Shown: positions 1 through 9,633 of the stretch, piece by piece
How the letters are laid out: every line of letters starts with the position of its first letter
How positions within the stretch are numbered: the first letter of the stretch is position 1
Assembly: GCA_017626145.1 (NCBI GenBank)
Contig: JAGAJK010000017.1
Span: 1-48,997 of the forward strand
Source of the DNA: Clostridia bacterium
Lineage (GTDB): Bacteria; Bacillota; Clostridia; RGIG6154
Length of the DNA stretch: 48,997 nt
Direction of reading: 5' to 3'
Position numbers and translations under genes: made by a program
Notes under the pieces: model-generated
Told to the model about the DNA's origin: nothing
What the model saw: only the letters and a program-made list of their open reading frames with translations
Databases searched by the model: none

Positions 1-10
1 TACCAGGAGT

Positions 11-38
11 AAAAATGCTTGCTTGCAAGGGCATTTTT
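11..38. terminator. Terminator-like hairpin at the left edge
   Basis: An 8-bp stem (AAAAATGC at 11-18 with GCATTTTT at 31-38) surrounds a GC-containing loop and has A- and T-rich flanks on both strands. This is the form of a bidirectional intrinsic terminator. It lies beyond the 3' end of the minus-strand accessory genes and may terminate them, or a gene outside the window. Confidence 0.5.
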
Positions 39-40
39 AC

Positions 41-121
41 GACGCCGTCAATATTGCAAAATGTACGAAGTACATTGGCGGCAAAGCCGCAAAGACTTGC
101 AACGCAAGGCTTGTTGCATAT
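41..121. repeat. Cloverleaf-like mini-hairpin cluster
   Basis: Three adjacent perfect hairpins (60-76 AATGTAC-gaa-GTACATT style, 78-90 GCGGC-aaa-GCCGC, 96-108 CTTGC-aac-GCAAG) sit inside an imperfect closing stem (ATATTGCAA at 51-59 with TTGCATAT at 114-121). A small GAC-gcc-GTC hairpin at 41-49 precedes it. All loops are three bases. The cluster lies downstream of the AbiTii-type gene, at the opposite end of the accessory genes from the larger palindrome at 3432-3613. Bases 122-206 are AT-rich and show no gene. Function unknown. Confidence 0.6.
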
Positions 122-206
122 ATTATAATTTATGTAAATATTATAAATCGGCAAACTATTCTTTTAAATTGTATGGACTTGACACAAGTAAAAACGTTAT
201 GGTCAA

Positions 207-1208
207 TTATTCTTCTTGCAAAGACAAAATATCTCCAATGCAAACATAAGTATGTATTATACATTGCATTGCATCTCTTTTTGTAATTTCATTATGAACT
301 CCTTTTGATTGAAGATTACTTAAGTACTCTATTCTATCTATCAAGTATACAATGTTACTACCAATAAGACTTTTCGACATTGACCTATCCGTTAAATTCT
401 CTATTACTGCTGAAAGTTTATTAAGATAATGATCCCCACTTACATCTATATCTTTTCCCGATTTAGTCTTGTAGGTTTTTTCGCTATAATTGGGAAAATA
501 TTTATCAAATAATTCTTTAGATATATTTTCAAATAATCTCCTACAAGTCATTAAGGCTTGCGAAAACATTTCCGGATTATCTGAATTTAGTTTATCTTCA
601 ATTGCCTGCAACTTCAACAATGCTGAAGTAGATATTTTAGAAAAATGATTATCAACTGATTCCCTGTATTGAGAAAAAACATCAGCTGTAACATTGCCAA
701 AGGTTAATTCTATTTGCTTTTTCAATGCATAGTCATAGTATTGTGATTTAAGTTTAGATAACTTGGTTTCATTTTCCGAGACTTGTTTCAATAATACTCC
801 TGTTGAACTTGTAACAGACCTAGTCAACGAATCCATTGCCCAGTGTGCATGCTCTCCTGCTGTAGAAACTCCCTCTGTTGTAAAATTATTAATAGCTTTA
901 CTTTGTGTTTCTATTCTTTTTTCCAATTCTGAAGCTAATTCAGTAAATATTATCTTTTCCTTCTTATCATTATAACTACCTCTGCCATTTTTATAAGCAA
1001 TCTCCCATGCTTCATGTTCTATATGTCCATCAGCTTTTCTTGGATATCCAGAATTTTCATATGTTAACCATTCTATAGCCTCAAAATCATTTAAAAGCCT
1101 AGCAATACGCATACAAAGCAGCAACGCTGATGAAACTGCTATTGTCCCAAGTTCAAATCCTTCCAGCACCTTATCGCAGGCTTCCAATGCGTGTTCTATT
1201 TTTGTCAT
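207..1208 (-). CDS. AbiTii-domain protein, putative phage-defence component
   Basis: A 333-residue soluble protein with no signal peptide or membrane segment. The N-terminal ~85 residues resemble the AbiTii domain: a short helical region, then a segment with EAIEWLTYENSGYP (around residues 43-56), matching the family pattern of a Trp/Glu-rich helix ending in GYP. The middle (about 90-200) is helical and charged. The C-terminal part has a Cys-Arg-Arg helix (around residue 225) and an SKGVHNEIT segment close to the end, as in other AbiTii/HEPN-like proteins. AbiTii proteins are predicted, mostly uncharacterised, abortive-infection factors. AAAGGA lies 8 nt before the ATG. It is the last of three co-oriented accessory genes, 93 bp after the nuclease-like gene. 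The family call is by eye; the defence role is inference. Confidence 0.6.
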   Translation of the reverse strand: MTKIEHALEACDKVLEGFELGTIAVSSALLLCMRIARLLNDFEAIEWLTYENSGYPRKADGHIEHEAWEIAYKNGRGSYNDKKEKIIFTELASELEKRIETQSKAINNFTTEGVSTAGEHAHWAMDSLTRSVTSSTGVLLKQVSENETKLSKLKSQYYDYALKKQIELTFGNVTADVFSQYRESVDNHFSKISTSALLKLQAIEDKLNSDNPEMFSQALMTCRRLFENISKELFDKYFPNYSEKTYKTKSGKDIDVSGDHYLNKLSAVIENLTDRSMSKSLIGSNIVYLIDRIEYLSNLQSKGVHNEITKRDAMQCIIHTYVCIGDILSLQEE

Positions 1209-1301
1209 TTGAATTATCCTTTCTATACTTTATCTGTATAATCAACCATCATCTTTGTTAATACAAAATTGTTCTATGTAGATATAAAACAAGTAAGATA
1301 T

Positions 1302-2984
1302 TTATTTTTGCTTACTTCGCTTTTCTCTATAACACTCTGGGCAGCCTCTGCCATTACTCCTATTATTTACTGATGTTTCCCATTCATGGCCTTTATCACA
1401 TATCCACCAATATTTTTTATTGCTGTGTTCGGTGACTTGTGAAGGCAAAACATTTTCATTTTTTGAATAGTTCCATGTTTTTGCAATATCAGGACGCAAT
1501 GTCTCCAAATCATTAAAGCCAGCTAACACCTTTTTCCCTGCACAAATAGGACAACCTTCGCCTCTAATTCTTTTTAAAATAGACTTTGTATAACTATGTC
1601 CTTTTTCACATTTCCAATGCACTACTCTTTCGCCACCACCATATATTTCCGATGGATTGACATCGTTCTTTGTATAGTCCCAATATTTTAGTAATTCTGG
1701 ATATTTTGATGCCAAATCGTTTCCTGCTCTTTTTAAAAGGTTACGATGTTTAGAACAAACGCTACCTTGGGCAATTTTGCTTGGCAACGCCAAATATGAT
1801 CTGTTGCATATTTTACACTTCCAATAAAACCGCTGTCCAGTACCAAGTGTTACCATTTCGGGGGTTATAGTCCCGTTTTTCTCATAATCCCACCTGTCAA
1901 CCAAATCAGGTCTGATAGTGGCAATACTGTTTTCTTTTCGTAAAGCAACATATTGATTTTTAATAGTAATGGCATCTCTTGAACAATCAATATTAATTGA
2001 GTTATCAACACCTAAAACTTCAAAAATATCCTTAACAAGGCAAGTCAAATCGTTGAAAGTGGTTCTTTCATTTATATAAAAATCTGCCTGTTCCTTTTCT
2101 TCGGTATACTTGTATTCTTTTACAACAAATAAGGCTATTCCAATAGATTTAAAGAACTCTTTTTTGAGAGCGTCCTTTTCGGTCTTTTCCTTATGTGAAA
2201 AATAGCCATTATATTCAATACCAACATTTTTTGAAGGAATAAATATATCAATTTCTCGTCCATCAAATATATATCTATTTACCGTATCCTGAAACACTTG
2301 TTTCAGATAAAAATAAATTGCTTGTTCTGGGAAGGATGTTTGGCTTTGCTGTGCACAAATTGGGCATCCTTGTCTATTACTTCTCTGTTTAACTGACATC
2401 AAATAATCATCATGCCCAAGAGGACAAATCCAATACACTTTTTTATTTGAATGAACAGTTACTTCTGTCGGTTTTGCAGTATTTTTTTTGCTCCACTCTG
2501 CTGCTAAATTCGGCAATTGCGACTGCAAATCATTATATCCATCAAGGACTTTTTGTCCTGCACAATAAGGGCATCCAACACCTTTAGTTGTTCGATTGCT
2601 TACATATGATTCATACTCACCGCCACACTTTTTACACTTCCACCAGACCTTTTTATTGCTTGCGAATGTAACTGTTTCGGGAGTGATATCGCCATTTTTT
2701 TCATAATTCCATTCGGTGGCAACTTGAGGATAAAACGTTTCTATATCATTATAACCTTTTAATACTTTTTTACCTGCACAGTAGGAACAACCGTTACCGC
2801 TAACTCTATTCTTTATTTGCGCTTCATAGGAATGTCCTTTTTTGCAAACCCACCATACTTTTGTGCGGCTTCCTTGGGTCAAAATCTGTGGATCGAATCC
2901 CAAATCATTATTCTTTTTCCAGTTCCACTCTGCCATAAGTTGAGCATTATCGCTCACATATCTTTTTTCTTTCTTTTCTGCCAT
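1302..2984 (-). CDS. Six-zinc-ribbon protein with central VSR/PD-(D/E)XK-like nuclease domain
   Basis: A 560-residue protein. It has three treble-clef/zinc-ribbon repeats (about 20-70, 92-141, 163-210), a nuclease-like domain (about 217-290), then three more ribbons (about 365-410, 435-481, 505-551). Each repeat begins with a W-[ND]-[YW]-x-K-N element, has W-x-C-xx-GH or W-x-C-xx-C, and ends in G-C-[PS]-x-C; this is the DUF4379/PF14311 pattern. The central block contains FPEQ, EIDIFIP and GIEYNG followed by SH, the acidic/core pattern of very-short-patch-repair-like restriction folds. The ATG at 2984 has AAAGGAG 9 nt upstream; the in-frame TTG at 2993 abuts the Shine-Dalgarno and is rejected. 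Ribbon 4 is atypical (C-SKH instead of C-P-x-C). Such proteins occur in mobile and defence regions; the substrate is unknown. Confidence 0.75.
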   Translation of the reverse strand: MAEKKEKRYVSDNAQLMAEWNWKKNNDLGFDPQILTQGSRTKVWWVCKKGHSYEAQIKNRVSGNGCSYCAGKKVLKGYNDIETFYPQVATEWNYEKNGDITPETVTFASNKKVWWKCKKCGGEYESYVSNRTTKGVGCPYCAGQKVLDGYNDLQSQLPNLAAEWSKKNTAKPTEVTVHSNKKVYWICPLGHDDYLMSVKQRSNRQGCPICAQQSQTSFPEQAIYFYLKQVFQDTVNRYIFDGREIDIFIPSKNVGIEYNGYFSHKEKTEKDALKKEFFKSIGIALFVVKEYKYTEEKEQADFYINERTTFNDLTCLVKDIFEVLGVDNSINIDCSRDAITIKNQYVALRKENSIATIRPDLVDRWDYEKNGTITPEMVTLGTGQRFYWKCKICNRSYLALPSKIAQGSVCSKHRNLLKRAGNDLASKYPELLKYWDYTKNDVNPSEIYGGGERVVHWKCEKGHSYTKSILKRIRGEGCPICAGKKVLAGFNDLETLRPDIAKTWNYSKNENVLPSQVTEHSNKKYWWICDKGHEWETSVNNRSNGRGCPECYREKRSKQK

Positions 2985-3058
2985 AATACTCAACTCCTTT
3001 TAATTTCATTTTTCAACACTATTTGGCACCATTCAGCATAATTCAACTTTTGTTAAAA

Positions 3059-3412
3059 TTATTGATTGCCCTTTGCAGTATTTATTGATGCAATTAACAG
3101 TTTACGAATCTTACTGCATTTATCATACATATCAGCATATTCTATTTCGGTTATCATTTTTGTTTCTTTAAACAATCCTAACCAATAATCACTTTCATAG
3201 CATTCTTTCAATGCAATCTGAAACTTATTGATGAAATCAGCTTTGCTTGATGCGTAGTTTGCTTCGTGGATATTTGCACCTATGCTCGTTCCACTTCTTA
3301 ACAACTGATTTAACAAAACATTTCCCTTCCGGTTTTCTTTTATATCAGTGCATAAATTAACAATATCAACTGCAAACATTTTTGATAATTCGATAAGTTT
3401 ATTTTCTTTCAT
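3059..3412 (-). CDS. Four-helix-bundle protein (S23 / 23S rRNA intervening-sequence protein family)
   Basis: A 117-residue helical protein of the usual length for the S23/IVP family. It has the family signature: a first helix, NQLLRSGTSIGANIHEA (about residues 35-51; R-S-x-S-I-x-x-N-I-x-E is diagnostic), then KADFINKFQIALKE and a Tyr/Trp-containing third helix with WLGL. The same fold is found in proteins encoded within 23S rRNA intervening sequences and in the Avd accessory protein of diversity-generating retroelements, which bind nucleic acid; no reverse transcriptase is present here. GGAGA precedes the ATG. It is the first gene after the promoter at 3662-3690, and its 5' leader contains the fishbone palindrome at 3432-3613. 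The neighbours suggest a role linked to that structure, but this is inference. Confidence 0.85.
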   Translation of the reverse strand: MKENKLIELSKMFAVDIVNLCTDIKENRKGNVLLNQLLRSGTSIGANIHEANYASSKADFINKFQIALKECYESDYWLGLFKETKMITEIEYADMYDKCSKIRKLLIASINTAKGNQ

Positions 3413-3431
3413 TGCTATTCTCCATTTCTTA

Positions 3432-3613
3432 ATGAATTGACAACTTTATTGTCATGAATTGGCTCCGCCATGAATTCTCGCTATCGCTCCATGAATTGAA
3501 TTGCCTTTTAATGCACCTCCAGTGCAATTCATGAGCCGCAAGGCTCAATTCGTGAAATCACAGATTTCAATTAATGCCGTCAGGCAATTCATTGAGTCTG
3601 CTTTGCAAACTCA
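3432..3613. repeat. Fishbone palindrome: heptamer-linked mini-hairpin array
   Basis: The heptamer ATGAATT occurs at 3432, 3454, 3470 and 3491. Its complement AATTCAT, or a one- to two-base variant, occurs at 3526, 3547, 3569 and 3586, mirror-symmetric about ~3512. The segments between heptamers are themselves small hairpins of unrelated sequence: 3439-3453, 3461-3469, a degenerate one at 3477-3490, 3516-3530 (central), 3533-3546, 3554-3568, 3576-3585 and 3592-3612. Folded, the strand makes one long interrupted stem of heptamer pairs with side hairpins on both sides. Bases 3413-3755 hold no gene. The array lies between the promoter and the start of the four-helix-bundle gene and would be transcribed as its leader. 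Confidence 0.85.
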
Positions 3614-3661
3614 TGTCAAGTCAGGGTAAAAAGTTAAACTGCATTTTTCATTATTTTATTT

Positions 3662-3690
3662 ATTATACCATAAACTTCTGCTACAGACAA
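3662..3690 (-). promoter_or_regulatory. Sigma-A-type promoter for the accessory operon
   Basis: On the minus strand, TTGTCT (3685-3690), a 17-bp spacer and TATAAT (3662-3667). Transcription would start near 3655, run through the fishbone palindrome and reach the four-helix-bundle ATG at 3412, giving a structured leader of about 240 nt. Confidence 0.6.
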
Positions 3691-3722
3691 TATATTTAAA
3701 TTTTATGGGCTGAAATATTATA

Positions 3723-3754
3723 CAAAACGGTCGGCGTCTTTGCCGACCGTTTTG
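3723..3754 (-). terminator. Intrinsic terminator of the PurH-like gene
   Basis: A 12-bp perfect stem (AAAACGGTCGGC with GCCGACCGTTTT) and six-base loop, two bases past the stop codon of the PurH-like gene, ending in TTTT on the minus strand. Confidence 0.85.
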
Positions 3755-3755
3755 G

Positions 3756-5264
3756 TTATGGATTTATTATTTTGACATTTGTCATAAGCATTGAAATTTC
3801 AGCTTCATTGCAGGAGCTTATAAGCTCCTCGTCTTTTGCGGAGCCGCCCGGCTGTATAATCGATGCTATTTTGTTTTCTACACATAATGAAATAACTTCA
3901 TCGTGCTCTATGCTTACATTTGTAGCAAGTATTGCTTTTTCGGATTTATTTCCTGCTGCACTTACAGCATTGTTGCAGGCTGTAATTCTATTTGTCTGAC
4001 CTGTGGAAACACCTACTGTCTGACCGTCTTTGACAACAATAACAGAATCACCTTTTGTATGTCTTATGATTTTCCACGCAAACATAAGGTCTAAAATCTG
4101 TTGCTCGTCAGGCTTAATGTCGGTTACGCACTGACTTTCGTTTACAGTAACGGAAATGTTATTAACATTCCTCATAAGGAGACCGCCCTGTATTTTCATT
4201 ACTTCAAATTTTCTTTCGGTAATATCGCTGGCATAAACATCGTAAGCAAATACACTTAAGCCTTCCTTTGAAGAGCATATATCAAGTGCTTCTTCTTCAT
4301 AAGAAAGAGCCACAACTGCGTGATACGGATTCTTTATAATTTCAAGAGCAATTTTTTTATCAACCTCTCCGCCGAGAACAATTATCGCTCCGTTGCAGGA
4401 AATACTGTCAGTTCTGCTTGCTTTTACGAAAGCATCGTTAAGTTCATCTGCTACAGCAACACCGCATACTGTTGAATGCTTTGATATTATGGCTGCATTC
4501 TGCCCTTTGAATTCCTTTAAAAGCTGCACCGCAAAGTCAATATCACGGTATGTATTGAATGATGCAGAGGGTCCGCACAGCAATTTCATATCGCACAAAC
4601 CCATTGAATCTGAAAGACAGCTTTTATAAAGTGCTGCGGTATGTGCTGAATTTACCTCCTCCGTAAGGTCGGAAACCTTATCATAGGTTGAGTTAAATAT
4701 TTCAGGATAAGCAAAGGTGCTTACCTTGGTTTTCATATAATCTGATATAATAGAATCAAAACGGCAAAGATAATCGATAGCTTTATGACAAAGAGCCAGC
4801 TTGGTATCCTTCGAAACTTCTCCTGAAGCTCTTATTTCCGACAAAACGATTTCATAATCAGCACTGCTTGTTACAGCAACAACGTCATTAACATTTTTAA
4901 CAGCTGAACGAAGTGCAGAGCTTGCGCCGAAATCAAGATTATCCATTACTGAATAAAAGTCCTCATAAACACCGAAAACATTAACCGGATTAAGCATATT
5001 TACCACTACAACATCTACAGGCTCAATACCCTTTTCAAGCAGACTGCTTATCTCGTCCGGATTTGAGCGGTCTACAAGTATTGCTTTATGCAAATTACTG
5101 TCAAAATCGGTATTATGAATTTCAAAAACCGCAACACCGTTTTCTCTTAAATAAACCGCAGTATCTGAATCAGCGATTATTTCGTAGCTGTTTTCCGACA
5201 ATGCCATTACAAATTCAAGAAGTCCGTCTTTGTTTTTGGCACTGATGAAAGCACATTTCTTCAT
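3756..5264 (-). CDS. Degenerate PurH paralogue (AICAR transformylase/IMP cyclohydrolase-like)
   Basis: 502 residues, collinear with bifunctional PurH, which makes IMP from AICAR. The C-terminal half is the clearest match: LMFAWKIIRHTKGD, VKDGQTVGVSTGQTNRI and IIQPGGSAKDEELI. The IMP cyclohydrolase half has lost the GRVKTLHPKIHGG motif, and STGGT has become ADSDT. VNLYPF has become VNMLNP, losing the conserved Tyr, while the Asp and Lys of the IDIGGP..RAAAKN region survive as LDFGAS..RSAVKN. In the transformylase half the RYGENPHQ element is missing. KHxNPCG is KHSTVCG, so the Lys-His pair is kept, and the Asn of the SNA/SNS segment is Asp. It is probably not a normal purine enzyme. It stands alone with its own strong promoter beside sporulation genes, with no other pur gene present. 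AAAGGAAG precedes the ATG. Confidence 0.75.
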   Translation of the reverse strand: MKKCAFISAKNKDGLLEFVMALSENSYEIIADSDTAVYLRENGVAVFEIHNTDFDSNLHKAILVDRSNPDEISSLLEKGIEPVDVVVVNMLNPVNVFGVYEDFYSVMDNLDFGASSALRSAVKNVNDVVAVTSSADYEIVLSEIRASGEVSKDTKLALCHKAIDYLCRFDSIISDYMKTKVSTFAYPEIFNSTYDKVSDLTEEVNSAHTAALYKSCLSDSMGLCDMKLLCGPSASFNTYRDIDFAVQLLKEFKGQNAAIISKHSTVCGVAVADELNDAFVKASRTDSISCNGAIIVLGGEVDKKIALEIIKNPYHAVVALSYEEEALDICSSKEGLSVFAYDVYASDITERKFEVMKIQGGLLMRNVNNISVTVNESQCVTDIKPDEQQILDLMFAWKIIRHTKGDSVIVVKDGQTVGVSTGQTNRITACNNAVSAAGNKSEKAILATNVSIEHDEVISLCVENKIASIIQPGGSAKDEELISSCNEAEISMLMTNVKIINP

Positions 5265-5310
5265 AATCTTCTTCCTTTCATATGAACACAGATACTATTC
5301 ATACACGTTA

Positions 5311-5339
5311 ATTCTACCATATTTATAAGCAGTTGTCAA
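5311..5339 (-). promoter_or_regulatory. Promoter of the PurH-like gene
   Basis: TTGACA (5334-5339), 17-bp spacer and TAGAAT (5311-5316) on the minus strand, about 45 bp before the ATG. This is a near-consensus vegetative promoter, so the gene looks actively expressed despite its degenerate motifs. Confidence 0.7.
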
Positions 5340-5349
5340 ATTTGAAGCA

Positions 5350-5388
5350 GGCGGCTCCTCCTTCTTTGGGGAAAGCCGCCTTGTTTTT
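5350..5388. terminator. GC-rich hairpin between sipL and the PurH-like gene
   Basis: GGCGGCT (5350-5356) pairs with AGCCGCC (5374-5380). The T-tract follows on the plus strand only. On the minus strand, where sipL ends at 5393, the hairpin lacks a good U-tract, so it is an imperfect sipL terminator that may allow read-through. Confidence 0.5.
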
Positions 5389-5392
5389 ATAT

Positions 5393-6943
5393 TTACTTTA
5401 AAGCTGTATCCACTTCAATCTTATGCTTGGGGATAAATAATTTCATACCTTTTTTCAATACATCCGATTCCATTTTATTCAGTGCTTTAACTTTATCTAT
5501 ACTTGTTAAATACTTCTTAGCAACTGACCAGAGGTCGTCGTTTTCCTGAACGAAATATACAGTTATCGATGCATTGTCATTCTGTTTTCCTCTTTCTTCA
5601 AAGGTTATATCGGTTATTAAACCTGTCTCCTTTGTTGTATACACAATACCGCTTACCGATACATTGCACCTGATTTCAATACTACCGTCGGAATTTAATG
5701 TATAGCTTGGGCCTGTAGCTTCACAGAACGCATCACATTCGGTATTTTGTATTGCTGTACTGCAATCTGCAGAATATGAGAAAGGAATAGTTTTTTTCAC
5801 CGTAGTAAGAGGCTGATTTGTGTCGGTACAGATACACAAAGCTTTTACATTTACGTTCCCTTTAAAAACAATCTTGCCGTCGGTAATATTAATGCTTTCA
5901 TTTTCCGCACTTGCCGATACATTAAGAACTGATGATATTTTCGAGCCGTTATCTACCCCTTCTTTTAAGCTTAACTGACCGCTGAAGCTTTTAAGCGGAA
6001 CGCGGAACGGTATGTTTTCACGTTTCATATCGCAAGTACTTGTTATACTGTAGCAATCGTCTACGAGAGTTACTGTATCATTTATGTAGCAATACACTCT
6101 CCCCTTAAGCTCTGTACATATTTCAAAATCACGGATTGCCAGCTGATCACAGGCACATTTCGTACTGCAAACAGATATATCGGTGTAAGAAAAGCTGTCC
6201 TCACGGATTCCGTCAACATCAAATATTTCAGTAAAGGGTGTAACCTTCGTCAGCTGACGTATTTCATCACTTTCAGTTTCTTTGTAAATAATATCTGTGG
6301 TTACTTCACCTTTTACTATTACTTTATTGTTAATAACTCTTACACTTTTATCGCTTATTGAAGAAATGGTATCAAGTATTTCCGAAGCACTTATTTTATC
6401 AATGGGGATTTCAGCACGGTCATTTACTTCAAAAATTTTTTCAAAGTCGGTCTTGGGACTTAAAAAACTGAACTGTGCAAACTTCTTTTCGGTATCGGTG
6501 GATACCAGATCGTAAACTAAAGACAGCTCCTGGCGGTTATATACATCAATATCCACATTAACAACTGATTTTAAAGAAAGCTTTCTGCCATTTAAAATTC
6601 TGCACTCCGAATCCTTAAGGCTGTAATCGAGAGATACCTCCATCCCCGGAGCAGCACCGGGCAGGTCAATAACATCAGTAAATGAGGATGTACATTTTAT
6701 ACTTTCAGTTATATTTTCTTCCGTGCTGTATATTATTTTATAATCCATACTTCCGTAAATAAGAATTCTGTCATTCTGTAATTCCCTGCCTGTTACCTTC
6801 GGCTGTGCATTCAACGACAATATACAGACAGCATCCGGATTCACATCAGGAACTATAACATCACCGTCTACGCTTATATTAGCTTTTGCTGAAACTATAT
6901 GACCGATATAATAAATATCTTTTTTCTTGATTTCTGTATCCAT
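5393..6943 (-). CDS. sipL: SipL-like spore coat morphogenesis protein (DUF3794/SPOCS + LysM)
   Basis: 516 residues, close to the length of C. difficile SipL, the partner of SpoIVA in attaching the coat to the forespore. SPOCS/DUF3794-type beta-rich segments cover roughly residues 20-140, 180-290 and 310-430, each with an alternating I/V pattern and motifs such as KVIVKGEVTTDIIY and GKIVFKGNVNVKALC. The C-terminal ~50 residues are a LysM domain (YFVQENDDLWSVAKKY to KKGMKLFIPK). No signal peptide, as expected for a mother-cell protein. AAAGGACG precedes the ATG. It is divergent from the germinant receptor operon across 87 bp. A sigma-E/K-like -10 lies upstream. Paralogous DUF3794 proteins exist in Clostridia, so identity as SipL itself is likely but unproven. 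Confidence 0.8.
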   Translation of the reverse strand: MDTEIKKKDIYYIGHIVSAKANISVDGDVIVPDVNPDAVCILSLNAQPKVTGRELQNDRILIYGSMDYKIIYSTEENITESIKCTSSFTDVIDLPGAAPGMEVSLDYSLKDSECRILNGRKLSLKSVVNVDIDVYNRQELSLVYDLVSTDTEKKFAQFSFLSPKTDFEKIFEVNDRAEIPIDKISASEILDTISSISDKSVRVINNKVIVKGEVTTDIIYKETESDEIRQLTKVTPFTEIFDVDGIREDSFSYTDISVCSTKCACDQLAIRDFEICTELKGRVYCYINDTVTLVDDCYSITSTCDMKRENIPFRVPLKSFSGQLSLKEGVDNGSKISSVLNVSASAENESINITDGKIVFKGNVNVKALCICTDTNQPLTTVKKTIPFSYSADCSTAIQNTECDAFCEATGPSYTLNSDGSIEIRCNVSVSGIVYTTKETGLITDITFEERGKQNDNASITVYFVQENDDLWSVAKKYLTSIDKVKALNKMESDVLKKGMKLFIPKHKIEVDTALK

Positions 6944-6994
6944 ATTAACGTCCTTTCATACAAATTCTTTATTCAATACTATTCTTTCACACTT

Positions 6995-7022
6995 TATTTT
7001 ATGAATAAATTTCATATTTTGT
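6995..7022 (-). promoter_or_regulatory. Possible sigma-E/sigma-K promoter of sipL
   Basis: On the minus strand, AC (7021-7022), 17 bp, then CATAAAATA (6995-7003), which fits the sigma-K pattern AC-N16/17-CATANNNTA. The region is very AT-rich, so a chance match is possible. Expression in the mother cell would fit the SipL assignment. Confidence 0.3.
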
Positions 7023-7030
7023 AAAACAAT

Positions 7031-8608
7031 ATGAATATGGATAATATATTGAATTTTTTAAAGAACGTATTCACAACAAATGAAGAAAAGTTTTCCATAA
7101 CATCGGCAGAAGGGATGTCTGAAAAAACATCCATAAAGGTTTTTACGGATATGGAAGAAAACTTGAAAACAATAAAAAATTATTTCTCATCGCCTTTAAA
7201 TTCTGACATAAAAATCAGAGAATTTATGACGTGTGGAAGAAAATCCTTTGCGGTATTTATAGAAAATCTTGTAAACTCAGAACTGTTGAACACACACATT
7301 CTTGCGCCGCTGATACTTTTGAAAAAAGATGCCGGCTCAGAGGATATTACTAAAACTCTTATTGTTCATAATCAGGTATCAACACAGACGGAATTTGAGA
7401 AAATACTCCTTTCTGTTAATATGGGTGACTGTGCCTTATTTATTGACGGTTTTGACAAATGTATTATATGTGATGTTAAGTTCTGGGTGCGAAGAGGAGT
7501 TGAACCGCCGGTTTCAGAGGCGGTTATTTACGGTCCTCACGAAGGCTTTAACGAAAACTTTAAAACCAATACTGCTCTTATAAGAAAAATCGTAAGAAAT
7601 GAAAATATGATTTGCGAAACTGTGAATGTAGGAAACGTAAGCAAGACCCCCTGCGCGCTTATATATATGAAAAATATAACCGACGAAAACACGGTAAACG
7701 AAATACGACATCGGCTGAACAATATTGATTCGGACTATATTTTTCAGCTCGGTGAGTTGGAGCAATATATAGAAGACAGTAATTATTCGTTAGTACCTCA
7801 GTTTCTTACAACTGAACGCCCTGATAAAGCTGCAAGTGAGCTTATTGAGGGAAAGATTGTTTTAATTCTTCAGGGAAGTCCGTTTGCCTTGATTGCCCCT
7901 GTTACTGCAGGAGAATTTATAACAACGGTTGAGGATGATTACATCCGCTTCCCTTTCGCAAACCTTATAAAAGTTATCAGAATTATTGGTATTATTATGT
8001 CCTTTCTTCTGTCGGGGCTTTATGTGGCGACAGTTAATTTTCATCACGAAATGATCCCAACAAGCCTTTTATTCGCAATTGAAGCATCACGCAACGCGGT
8101 ACCTTTATCGGCTTTTGGTGAAATTCTGCTGATGGAAATTGCCTTTGATATTATACGTGAAGCAAGTATACGTGTTCCCTCCTCTATTGGTTCAACCTTA
8201 GGAATTATAGGCGGTCTTATTATAGGTCAGGCTGCGGTAGAAGCAAAATTAGTAAGTCCTATTGCTATTATAATTGTCGCAGCAGTAGGAATCGGTTCCT
8301 TTGCAACACCTAATTATGGGTTTAATATGGCACTCAGATTTTCAAGATACATTTACCTTATTCTGGGAGCAACAGCAGGATTTTTCGGAATTACTCTCGG
8401 GCTTGTTATAAGTGCTTATATACTGTCACATATAAAATCATTAGGAGTGCCTCTTCTCAGCGGAACAGGTTCAAAAAGCGAGGATAATTTTACGGGGATG
8501 TTCTTTAAAGCGCCTGTATGGAAAAGAGAAATACGACACAAATATTTACACGCAAAGCAAGAAAGAACGCAGGCAAAAATAAGCAGAAAGTGGGTGGAGC
8601 CGAAGTGA
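7031..8608 (+). CDS. gerKA: Spore germinant receptor A subunit (GerA/GerKA family)
   Basis: 525 residues of the GerA-family A subunit, which senses germinants in the spore inner membrane together with B and C subunits. The N-terminal ~260 residues are soluble and contain CDVKFWVRRGVEPP (about 148-161), a family hallmark. The C-terminal half has the membrane core with PFALIAPVTAGEF, RVPSSIGSTLGIIGGLIIGQAAV and SFATPNYGFNMALR, followed by a basic tail. No Shine-Dalgarno is visible before the ATG. It heads an overlapping four-gene operon. The symbol is family-level; the germinant cannot be read from sequence. Confidence 0.9.
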   Translation: MNMDNILNFLKNVFTTNEEKFSITSAEGMSEKTSIKVFTDMEENLKTIKNYFSSPLNSDIKIREFMTCGRKSFAVFIENLVNSELLNTHILAPLILLKKDAGSEDITKTLIVHNQVSTQTEFEKILLSVNMGDCALFIDGFDKCIICDVKFWVRRGVEPPVSEAVIYGPHEGFNENFKTNTALIRKIVRNENMICETVNVGNVSKTPCALIYMKNITDENTVNEIRHRLNNIDSDYIFQLGELEQYIEDSNYSLVPQFLTTERPDKAASELIEGKIVLILQGSPFALIAPVTAGEFITTVEDDYIRFPFANLIKVIRIIGIIMSFLLSGLYVATVNFHHEMIPTSLLFAIEASRNAVPLSAFGEILLMEIAFDIIREASIRVPSSIGSTLGIIGGLIIGQAAVEAKLVSPIAIIIVAAVGIGSFATPNYGFNMALRFSRYIYLILGATAGFFGITLGLVISAYILSHIKSLGVPLLSGTGSKSEDNFTGMFFKAPVWKREIRHKYLHAKQERTQAKISRKWVEPK

Positions 8609-9633
8609 CTTGTAACAAAATTGGCACATTGGAATTAACTTTTTTGTTTGTTAATCTGATTTGCAACAAGTTTTTTCTGTTCGCTCCCGAATATTTTCGA
8701 GCTACAGCCGGAAGCGGAACAGGAATAATGATTTGCCTTATGTTTCTTCTTATGTTTGCGGTATGGTCATTTTACAAACGAAGAAACATAACTAAGACAA
8801 GCTTCGGAAAAATGGGCAGTATTTTTCTTATAGCAGTTTTTATTTTTTCGGTTGCTCTTACTCTGCGGCAATATACGGAAACAGTAAAGGTAATTTCCCT
8901 GACACAGGCGTCACTTTATTTCATAGAAGGTATTTTTATTATTGCTATGATTACAGGAGCGTATTCAGGTATAAAAGGAATATGCAAGGCTCATATTTTT
9001 TATGCTCCGTTAATTTTTGCAGTTATGCTTATTTTAATCGTTTCTGCATCAGGTAAGCTTGATTTTTATATGCTGACACCGGTATTCGGTAACGGTATTC
9101 AGTCCATAGCAACGAATGCTTTATTCCTTCTATCTACTTTTCTGGAGTTTACTTTATTCTTTACACTCAAGCCTTTCAGTAAGGATGAAAAAAGCTTTAT
9201 AAGAGCCGGGAATCTTACACTCTTAATTTCTTTTGCGGTTATTATGATAATTACCCTTTGCTACATTGCTTCTTTTTCCGAAAATGCATCCGTTGAAAAA
9301 TACCCACCTGTATTTCAGATAATACGGTTAATAAATTCAGGAGCTTATTTTCAGAGATTTGATTCGTTATTTCTTATTGCTTTTTCCCTTTCGGCATACC
9401 TTTATCTGGGGGCAATGTTGTTTCTAATATGGCATTTATTTAAAAATGCATTCGAAATAGAAGGAAAAAATGCTGTGCTGATGCCTTTTGCTTTTATAAT
9501 TATTTCAACATCGTTTATAAATGCTTTAAGTGATGTTATAACCGCAAGTATAAAACACGTTGATGTGTTTTTGTGGGCAATTCCCGTTCTTATGCCTCTG
9601 TTATTGATAAAGAAAGGTAATAAAATACAATGA
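8605..9633 (+). CDS. gerKB: Spore germinant receptor B subunit (GerKB-type permease)
   Basis: 342 residues, predicted to be almost entirely membrane-embedded (about ten hydrophobic helices). It is a member of the APC-like endospore germination permease family (GerAB/GerKB). The start is taken at GTG 8605, which overlaps the gerKA stop in a GTGA arrangement with GGTGGAG a few bases upstream. An in-frame ATG at 8518 lies within gerKA and would add a basic, non-membrane extension not expected in the family. Motifs include FRATAGSGTGI near the first loop. Translationally coupled to the genes on both sides. Confidence 0.88.
   Translation: MTCNKIGTLELTFLFVNLICNKFFLFAPEYFRATAGSGTGIMICLMFLLMFAVWSFYKRRNITKTSFGKMGSIFLIAVFIFSVALTLRQYTETVKVISLTQASLYFIEGIFIIAMITGAYSGIKGICKAHIFYAPLIFAVMLILIVSASGKLDFYMLTPVFGNGIQSIATNALFLLSTFLEFTLFFTLKPFSKDEKSFIRAGNLTLLISFAVIMIITLCYIASFSENASVEKYPPVFQIIRLINSGAYFQRFDSLFLIAFSLSAYLYLGAMLFLIWHLFKNAFEIEGKNAVLMPFAFIIISTSFINALSDVITASIKHVDVFLWAIPVLMPLLLIKKGNKIQ

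Follow-up and report, generated by a model that had tools for sequence, protein, structure and literature searches.

The window analysed here, a 48,997-nt stretch of the genome of a Clostridia bacterium, contains at 3432–3613 an array of short hairpins that are separated by a constant heptamer and arranged with inverted symmetry about a centre. The array belongs to an element that consists of an inverted-symmetric hairpin array with family-specific 7-nt linkers, followed in some copies by a gene of the PF05635 family. With moderate confidence, we interpret the array as belonging to a small mobile DNA element of gut and rumen Clostridia, of which it would be the non-coding half; in this element the protein would handle the heptamers, the hairpins would act as single-stranded DNA, and insertion would take place at -10 boxes or terminators.

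Four copies of ATGAATT on the plus strand (3432–3438, 3454–3460, 3470–3476 and 3491–3497) face four inverted heptamers on the minus strand: AATTCAT at 3526–3532, the variants AATTCGT at 3547–3553 and AATTAAT at 3569–3575, and AATTCAT at 3586–3592. The midpoints of the paired heptamers fall between 3511.5 and 3514.5. The hairpins between them are unlike one another (GACAAC..GTC, GGC..GCC, GAGCC..GGCTC, GAAATC..GATTTC, GCC..GGC and GAGT..ACTC). Numbered in the sense of the gene, they begin at the right with hairpin 1 (3593–3613), which is exchangeable in the alignment from copy to copy, with GAGTTTGC, GATTTCATC, GCGGTC or terminator types. This is followed by h2 (3576–3585, GCC/GGC, from the alignment), h3 (3554–3568, GAAATC/GATTTC, covariation helix 2) and h4 (3533–3546, GAGCC/GGCTC, helix 3). 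The centre (3498–3525) combines hairpin h5, GCAC/GTGC, with a TGAATTGCC arm pairing across the array (helices 1 and 4). On the other side are h6 (3477–3490), a weaker stem with tandem G.A (GGAGC-GATA-GCGAG in the gene sense) whose counterparts in homologues are GTTGC/GCAAC or GATGC/GCATC, then h7 (3461–3469, GGC/GCC, helix 5) and h8 (3439–3453, GACAAC/GTTGTC, helix 6).

An array score that requires ordered inverted heptamers and a hairpin inside every insert was 7.1 for this array. None of 200 dinucleotide shuffles exceeded 4.1, and 22 of them scored above zero. Only 2 of 542 sliding windows across the whole stretch had a score of at least 5, and both overlap the array. The RNA folding z-scores of the two strands are nearly equal (-2.58 and -2.59), so neither strand is favoured.

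Homologous arrays provide evidence that the structure is maintained. 39 copies were aligned at 80% or higher identity over about 120 nt or more. Near-duplicates (L148, L126), truncated copies (L130, L150, L157) and copies running off their locus were excluded, leaving 33. In these, 98.8% of the cells in 36 pairs form standard base pairs. Changes on both sides were found in 12 of the 36 pairs, compared to a mean of 2.4 in shuffles (0 of 500 as high) and 0–4 in slid controls. In the hairpin loops, mean pairwise identity was 53%, compared to 85% in linkers and the remaining unpaired columns and 94% in paired ones. The window copy (L001) and a copy from another genus of the same family (L010) differ at 3 of the 72 paired columns, at 4 of the 75 in linkers and at 11 of the 23 in loops, while 10 of 28 four-fold sites in the gene differed – together with the identities, evidence of purifying selection on stems and linkers. 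Selection maintains the stems and linkers, and the loops vary freely. The initial annotation of this stretch had described a palindrome of four plus four heptamers centred at 3511–3515, with pairing but not sequence kept in the inserts, and had suggested a search for compensatory changes. The coordinates were right, the pairing is kept, and the compensatory changes are present in homologues; the freedom of sequence applies to the loops, as the stems are largely conserved. The extent given for the array was also correct, with the larger unit that includes the gene lying beyond it; that the array is dispersed as a mobile element and goes with a four-helix-bundle gene had escaped that annotation.

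The loops differ in type between the two arms. Across 87 array-bearing open reading frame (ORF) loci, left-arm loops were pyrimidine-rich (252:158) and right-arm loops purine-rich (102:245; p 9e-19). GNA triloops were found in 31 of 98 right-arm hairpins and in none of 115 on the left, and TNC triloops in 25 of 115 left-arm hairpins and none of 98 on the right. In loop type, as in linker, each arm is thus the reverse complement of the other. C-GNA-G loops are the classic stable mini-hairpin of DNA. Because the loops are strand-typed in this way, they point to an inverted design at the level of DNA, for which an RNA would have no obvious reason. The mismatches within stems (G.T to A.C) were 2:3 in the left arm and 8:0 in the right, though the events are few. 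The earlier suggestion that the array follows the logic of folded single-strand recombination sites such as attC was a fair lead in its general form, since the loops are typed as expected for DNA. Membership of the attC class itself is unsupported, with no integrase or cassette at the loci read; no integrase was seen among the ORFs of window positions 1–9000, where no integrase profile was run.

Copies of the element are numerous and spread over many genomes, some with the gene and some without it, some of them in tandem, and there are empty orthologous sites. In the window, the discrete repeated unit of array and ORF covers 3050–3632 on the minus strand, and a 90% identical block (527/584) was found in a genome (G001) from a different genus of the same family. 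The window locus and L010 have this block of about 583 nt in common at 90% identity, with unrelated flanks. The unit was matched in 61 of 391 genomes of the class, with many matches spanning the array alone, and gene-less arrays of 80–91% identity lie in front of unrelated genes. Some genomes have many copies, such as G290 with 13 matches and G197, of the same family, with 14. One G290 array separates a gene's -10 box from its start codon, and the orthologous intergenic region is empty in five sibling species (G218, G257, G275, G362 and G344). Three arrays are found in tandem ahead of the gene at L037, and tandem arrays of two different linker types at L120 and L127. As in miniature inverted-repeat transposable elements, the copies are short, dispersed and homologous, with unrelated flanks and empty sites. 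A possible target-site duplication, TACAAT/TATAAT, flanks both ends in some copies only.

Other features were noted beside gene-less arrays. At five loci (L122, L123, L125, L143 and L156), a common tail, GGCATCTAAAYCG..., follows the arrays, together with pairs of TGTCGAA-like boxes at a distance of 10 nt, which we take to resemble tandem Spo0A boxes. At L204, an array is followed by a solitary perfect hairpin (ATGTTATAATGAGTTTGC..), both arms of which carry the -10 box, possibly a remnant or an intermediate.

The insertion sites have features in common. Apart from promoter boxes, the flanks of the copies are unrelated. A sigma-A promoter with its -10 box abutting hairpin 1 was found in 17 of 33 ATGAATT-type copies, compared to 53 of 1980 random positions, and 16 of these 17 promoters have a 17-nt spacer. 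In a sister family, here called Gut-1-type, 22 of 30 arrays start directly after a hairpin and T-run, compared to 20 of 1800, and a tRNA gene lies upstream in 12 of 20 loci. The window copy does not fit cleanly into either class: its likely promoter, read from sequence as TTGTCT-N17-TATAAT (3662–3690, minus strand), is ca. 50 nt upstream of hairpin 1.

Read on the minus strand, the window's array passes directly into the ribosome-binding site (a putative GGAG at 3420–3423) of the gene at 3059–3412. The gene encodes a 117-aa four-helix-bundle protein that matches the profiles PF05635 (23S_rRNA_IVP) and TIGR02436, and PDB 2rld is a solved relative (E 3e-26). The window's genome has nine matches to this protein, counting its own copy. 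Several of the other PF05635-type copies in that genome are also preceded by arrays of unlike hairpins, with CGATAT or GTGRTAT linkers, and the linkers before relatives elsewhere include ATGAAAT, GTGAAAT, GCTAAAT, ATGATAT and ATGATTT. The array architecture (score of at least 5) was found upstream of 83 of 111 related ORFs, in 0 of 111 shuffles and in 0 of 97 downstream controls. Linker type tracks the phylogeny of the protein: it changes 7 times on the protein tree, where the minimum is 5 and the shuffled mean 29 (0 of 200), in an analysis that excluded the 34 of 121 ORF loci without a canonical linker and used a linker list drawn up after inspection of the data.

In the wider protein family, the heptamers have a different layout. 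At general PF05635 loci, a hairpin array (score of at least 4) was present in 1 of 30, and period-7 tandem repeats were found upstream in 15 of 30, with period 11 in two. Other array-less loci had period-7 repeats in 10 of 15 cases, including plasmid copies from Bernardetia, Treponema, Planktothrix and Nostoc. In a held-out test, 7 was the best of periods 4–12 in 23 of 34 loci, 63 of 680 shuffles and 7 of 33 downstream regions; at the earlier threshold, 10 of 34 loci passed, with 1 of 680 shuffles (any period) and 0 of 33 downstream regions. Tandem GACAGAT heptamers, variable between strains, precede the S23 gene in the 23S intervening sequence (IVS) of Coxiella, and are described without generalisation in the part of that paper available (Warrier 2016, PMC4990558). 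A literature search found no paper linking the PF05635 family at large to heptamers.

Some PF05635 loci differ in their surroundings. Three (L346, L185 and L188) have upstream 11-nt tandem repeats in place of 7-nt repeats. At six others (L007, L014, L015, L018, L019 and L021), which encode proteins of the subfamily found in the window, the gene lies a short distance downstream of a tRNA gene in a second layout: tandem CTATTCA-type heptamers, arranged in inverted halves, flank a long inverted repeat, with no hairpins between them. On two plasmids the gene lies among defence genes, between hsdS and hsdR in Monoglobus (L328) and between drmD and pglX in Planktothrix (L331), either by insertion into these operons or as a member of them.

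One sister family is already known in part. The Rfam family RF01706 (Gut-1) matches sister arrays with TGAAAT, ATGATAT and ATGAAAT linkers, and those at L030 and L127 reach the cut-off for membership, a covariance-model score of at least 50 bits. In 5 of 5 arrays (two at L127, one each at L030, L026 and L011), the model fits the left and right halves on opposite strands, and at 13 of 20 Gut-1 loci the best match has an adjoining, inward-facing partner on the opposite strand. With 15 candidates scored per genome, 32 of 291 genomes from the class had a Gut-1 match above the cut-off. Gut-1 RNA therefore appears to be the half-array of a sister family. Its hairpins have CUUCG-type loops and are joined by UGAAAU linkers, a plan shared with the sister arrays. 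It was described as a one-strand RNA, whereas the present analysis makes it one half of an inverted array that is dispersed in Clostridia and goes with a four-helix-bundle gene. The array of the window, unlike its sisters, is not a Gut-1 member, having no match up to E 10 in an Rfam scan of 2900–3800. In the available part of its source paper, Gut-1 is listed from the human gut only, as probably a noncoding RNA (Weinberg 2010, PMC2864571), and a literature search found nothing on it beyond that paper.

The published reading of Gut-1 leads to the most serious alternative, a structured RNA: the array would be transcribed from the promoter ahead of it, and would be either a protein-bound leader that autoregulates the gene or a free noncoding RNA. 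Since transcription of the array is probable, this reading, already named in the initial annotation, keeps real weight as a rival. The array lies between a promoter and the ribosome-binding site of the gene, the promoter abuts hairpin 1 in about half of the aligned copies, the stems covary, Rfam classes Gut-1 as a small RNA, and PF05635 relatives occur, as far as the available sources go, in 23S rRNA IVS and diversity-generating retroelements (DGRs). We nevertheless consider it unlikely to be the better description. An RNA would not require the loops of the two arms to be reverse complements. A sense RNA would also be expected to favour G.U in both arms, not in the right arm alone. Both strands fold equally well, and the strand to which the Gut-1 model fits changes from one half of the array to the other. 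In addition, many copies lack the gene, and Gut-1 arrays often stand directly after a terminator.

Inverted single-strand hairpins also resemble bacterial interspersed mosaic elements (BIMEs), and the arrays might be dispersed, like repetitive extragenic palindromic (REP) sequences, by a RAYT (Y1 transposase) encoded elsewhere. Genomes with and without Gut-1 were compared for candidate movers; the 36 Gut-1-negative genomes consist of 15 listed as matchless and 21 taken as being among 222 unlisted genomes. RAYT-type Y1 proteins were present in 16 of 36 Gut-1-positive and 7 of 36 other genomes, but this difference (p 0.04) is biased because the profile was built mostly from positive genomes. The profile had no match in four array-bearing genomes (G000, the window's genome, G138, G090 and G105), and no array lies beside the RAYT gene at the 15 RAYT loci read (scores 0–3.4). 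RAYT was therefore rejected as a required mover, and the reading as a whole is improbable. One genome (G013) has 29 RAYT-profile matches, mostly fragments, an expanded and decayed Y1 family.

Still less probable is a retroelement copied in trans by a reverse transcriptase (RT), with the protein acting like the DGR accessory protein Avd, or with an element inserting after terminators in the manner of group IIC introns, which prefer such sites. The homology of Avd to PF05635, as given in the available part of the literature, and the terminator-adjacent sites are in its favour. RT genes (RVT_1), however, were found in 9 of 36 Gut-1-positive compared to 18 of 36 other genomes, and a profile search found none in seven array-rich genomes (G000, G001, G047, G127, G138, G197 and G290), so copying by RT was rejected as a general mechanism. 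A profile of the four-helix-bundle protein (A3), which contains sequences from some of the Gut-1-positive genomes, matched 31 of 36 positive and 8 of 36 other genomes. In the 15 listed Gut-1-negative genomes alone, the A3 protein was found in 3, RT in 8 and RAYT in 2. Degenerate or chance repeats without function, which the two variants among the eight window heptamers might suggest, are refuted by the covariation in 33 arrays, with constraint and recurrence across genomes also against them.

Several other identities were rejected. The array is not a CRISPR (clustered regularly interspaced short palindromic repeats), its repeats being inverted about a centre with hairpins as inserts, nor a single terminator or classical REP; here too the initial annotation was upheld. 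Carriage by phages was rejected, as relatives of the protein are rare there (3, 0 and 3 loci in IMG/VR; 2 of 50,697 phage records).

Compared with known systems, the arrays resemble REPs and BIMEs in their palindromes, inverted pairs and many copies per genome, but no conserved REP hairpin or GTAG foot was seen in them, and RAYT is not required. The STRR and LTRR (short and long tandemly repeated repetitive sequences) of cyanobacteria are tandem repeats of heptanucleotides. These and the TAACTGA repeats of Beggiatoaceae (PMC4679880) share with the arrays a 7-nt unit and an intergenic location directly 5' of genes, but have no hairpins between units at the loci read; the term "four helix" does not appear in the main text of that paper, as far as it was available. 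DGRs differ in that no RT and no template/variable repeat pair was seen here, and RT is not required. The 23S rRNA IVS of Coxiella, Leptospira and Salmonella carries a PF05635 ORF (S23), as does the unit in the window, and has been read as a selfish element, as the arrays are here. In Coxiella the GACAGAT heptamers precede the ORF; ATGAATT/AATTCAT also do so here, but separated by hairpins. According to the available literature the IVS sits in rRNA helices and is excised by RNase III, whereas the present elements are intergenic, have hairpins between heptamers and include gene-less copies. The window copy is intergenic and not in a 23S rRNA helix, with no rRNA in the Rfam scan of 2900–3800. 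The element is thus related to known intervening sequences and to Gut-1, and a literature search found no description of the combination.

If the array is part of a mobile DNA element, the four-helix-bundle protein, a relative of Avd, would bind the heptamers as an address. During copying or insertion, each strand would contribute one arm, with its hairpins acting as single-stranded DNA mini-hairpins with C-GNA-G loops. The target would be DNA opened by transcription, just 3' of a -10 box or of an intrinsic terminator. Gene-less arrays would be moved in trans, and the host may supply the nuclease or polymerase needed to complete the move.

A number of points weigh against this interpretation. 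The element encodes no nuclease or transposase, and no single trans enzyme is always present, RT and RAYT each being absent from the majority of Gut-1-positive genomes (9 and 16 of 36 have them). Binding of the heptamers by the protein is a prediction, and the agreement between linker and protein could be plain co-inheritance. 28 of the 111 ORF loci scored below 5, and downstream controls in the first heptamer survey showed period 7 in 3 of 30. Insertion sites differ from family to family. The right-hand flanking hexamers include TATACT, TAGTAA and none, which leaves the TATAAT-like hexamers at both ends suggestive only. No clean empty copy was found for insertion at a tRNA terminator; the orthologous tRNA in G090 carries an unrelated terminator, so terminators may travel with the element and not be its target.

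In the window, the element is adjoined by two genes, both on the same strand, encoding a six-finger DUF4379 protein (1302–2993) and a weak AbiTii-like protein below the Pfam cut-off (207–1208). A perfect 13-bp inverted repeat at 3723–3754, directly 3' of a purH-like gene, is likely its terminator; weak, sub-threshold small RNA matches there look like chance.

A wider proposal is tentative, a possibility that we would not yet expect to hold: that S23/IVP/Avd proteins bind heptamers and mobilise strand-specific mini-hairpins into transcription bubbles at -10 boxes and terminators, as transposable DNA elements without a recognisable transposase, of which Gut-1, the 23S IVS and many heptanucleotide tracts would be branches. 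If the mobile-element reading is right, gut Clostridia have abundant mobile elements, with no known mover, on their promoters and terminators. Gut-1 RNA, whose function has gone unexplained in print since 2010, gains a possible explanation from this reading, which also gives the poorly understood S23/IVP family a testable partner, the 7-nt repeat.
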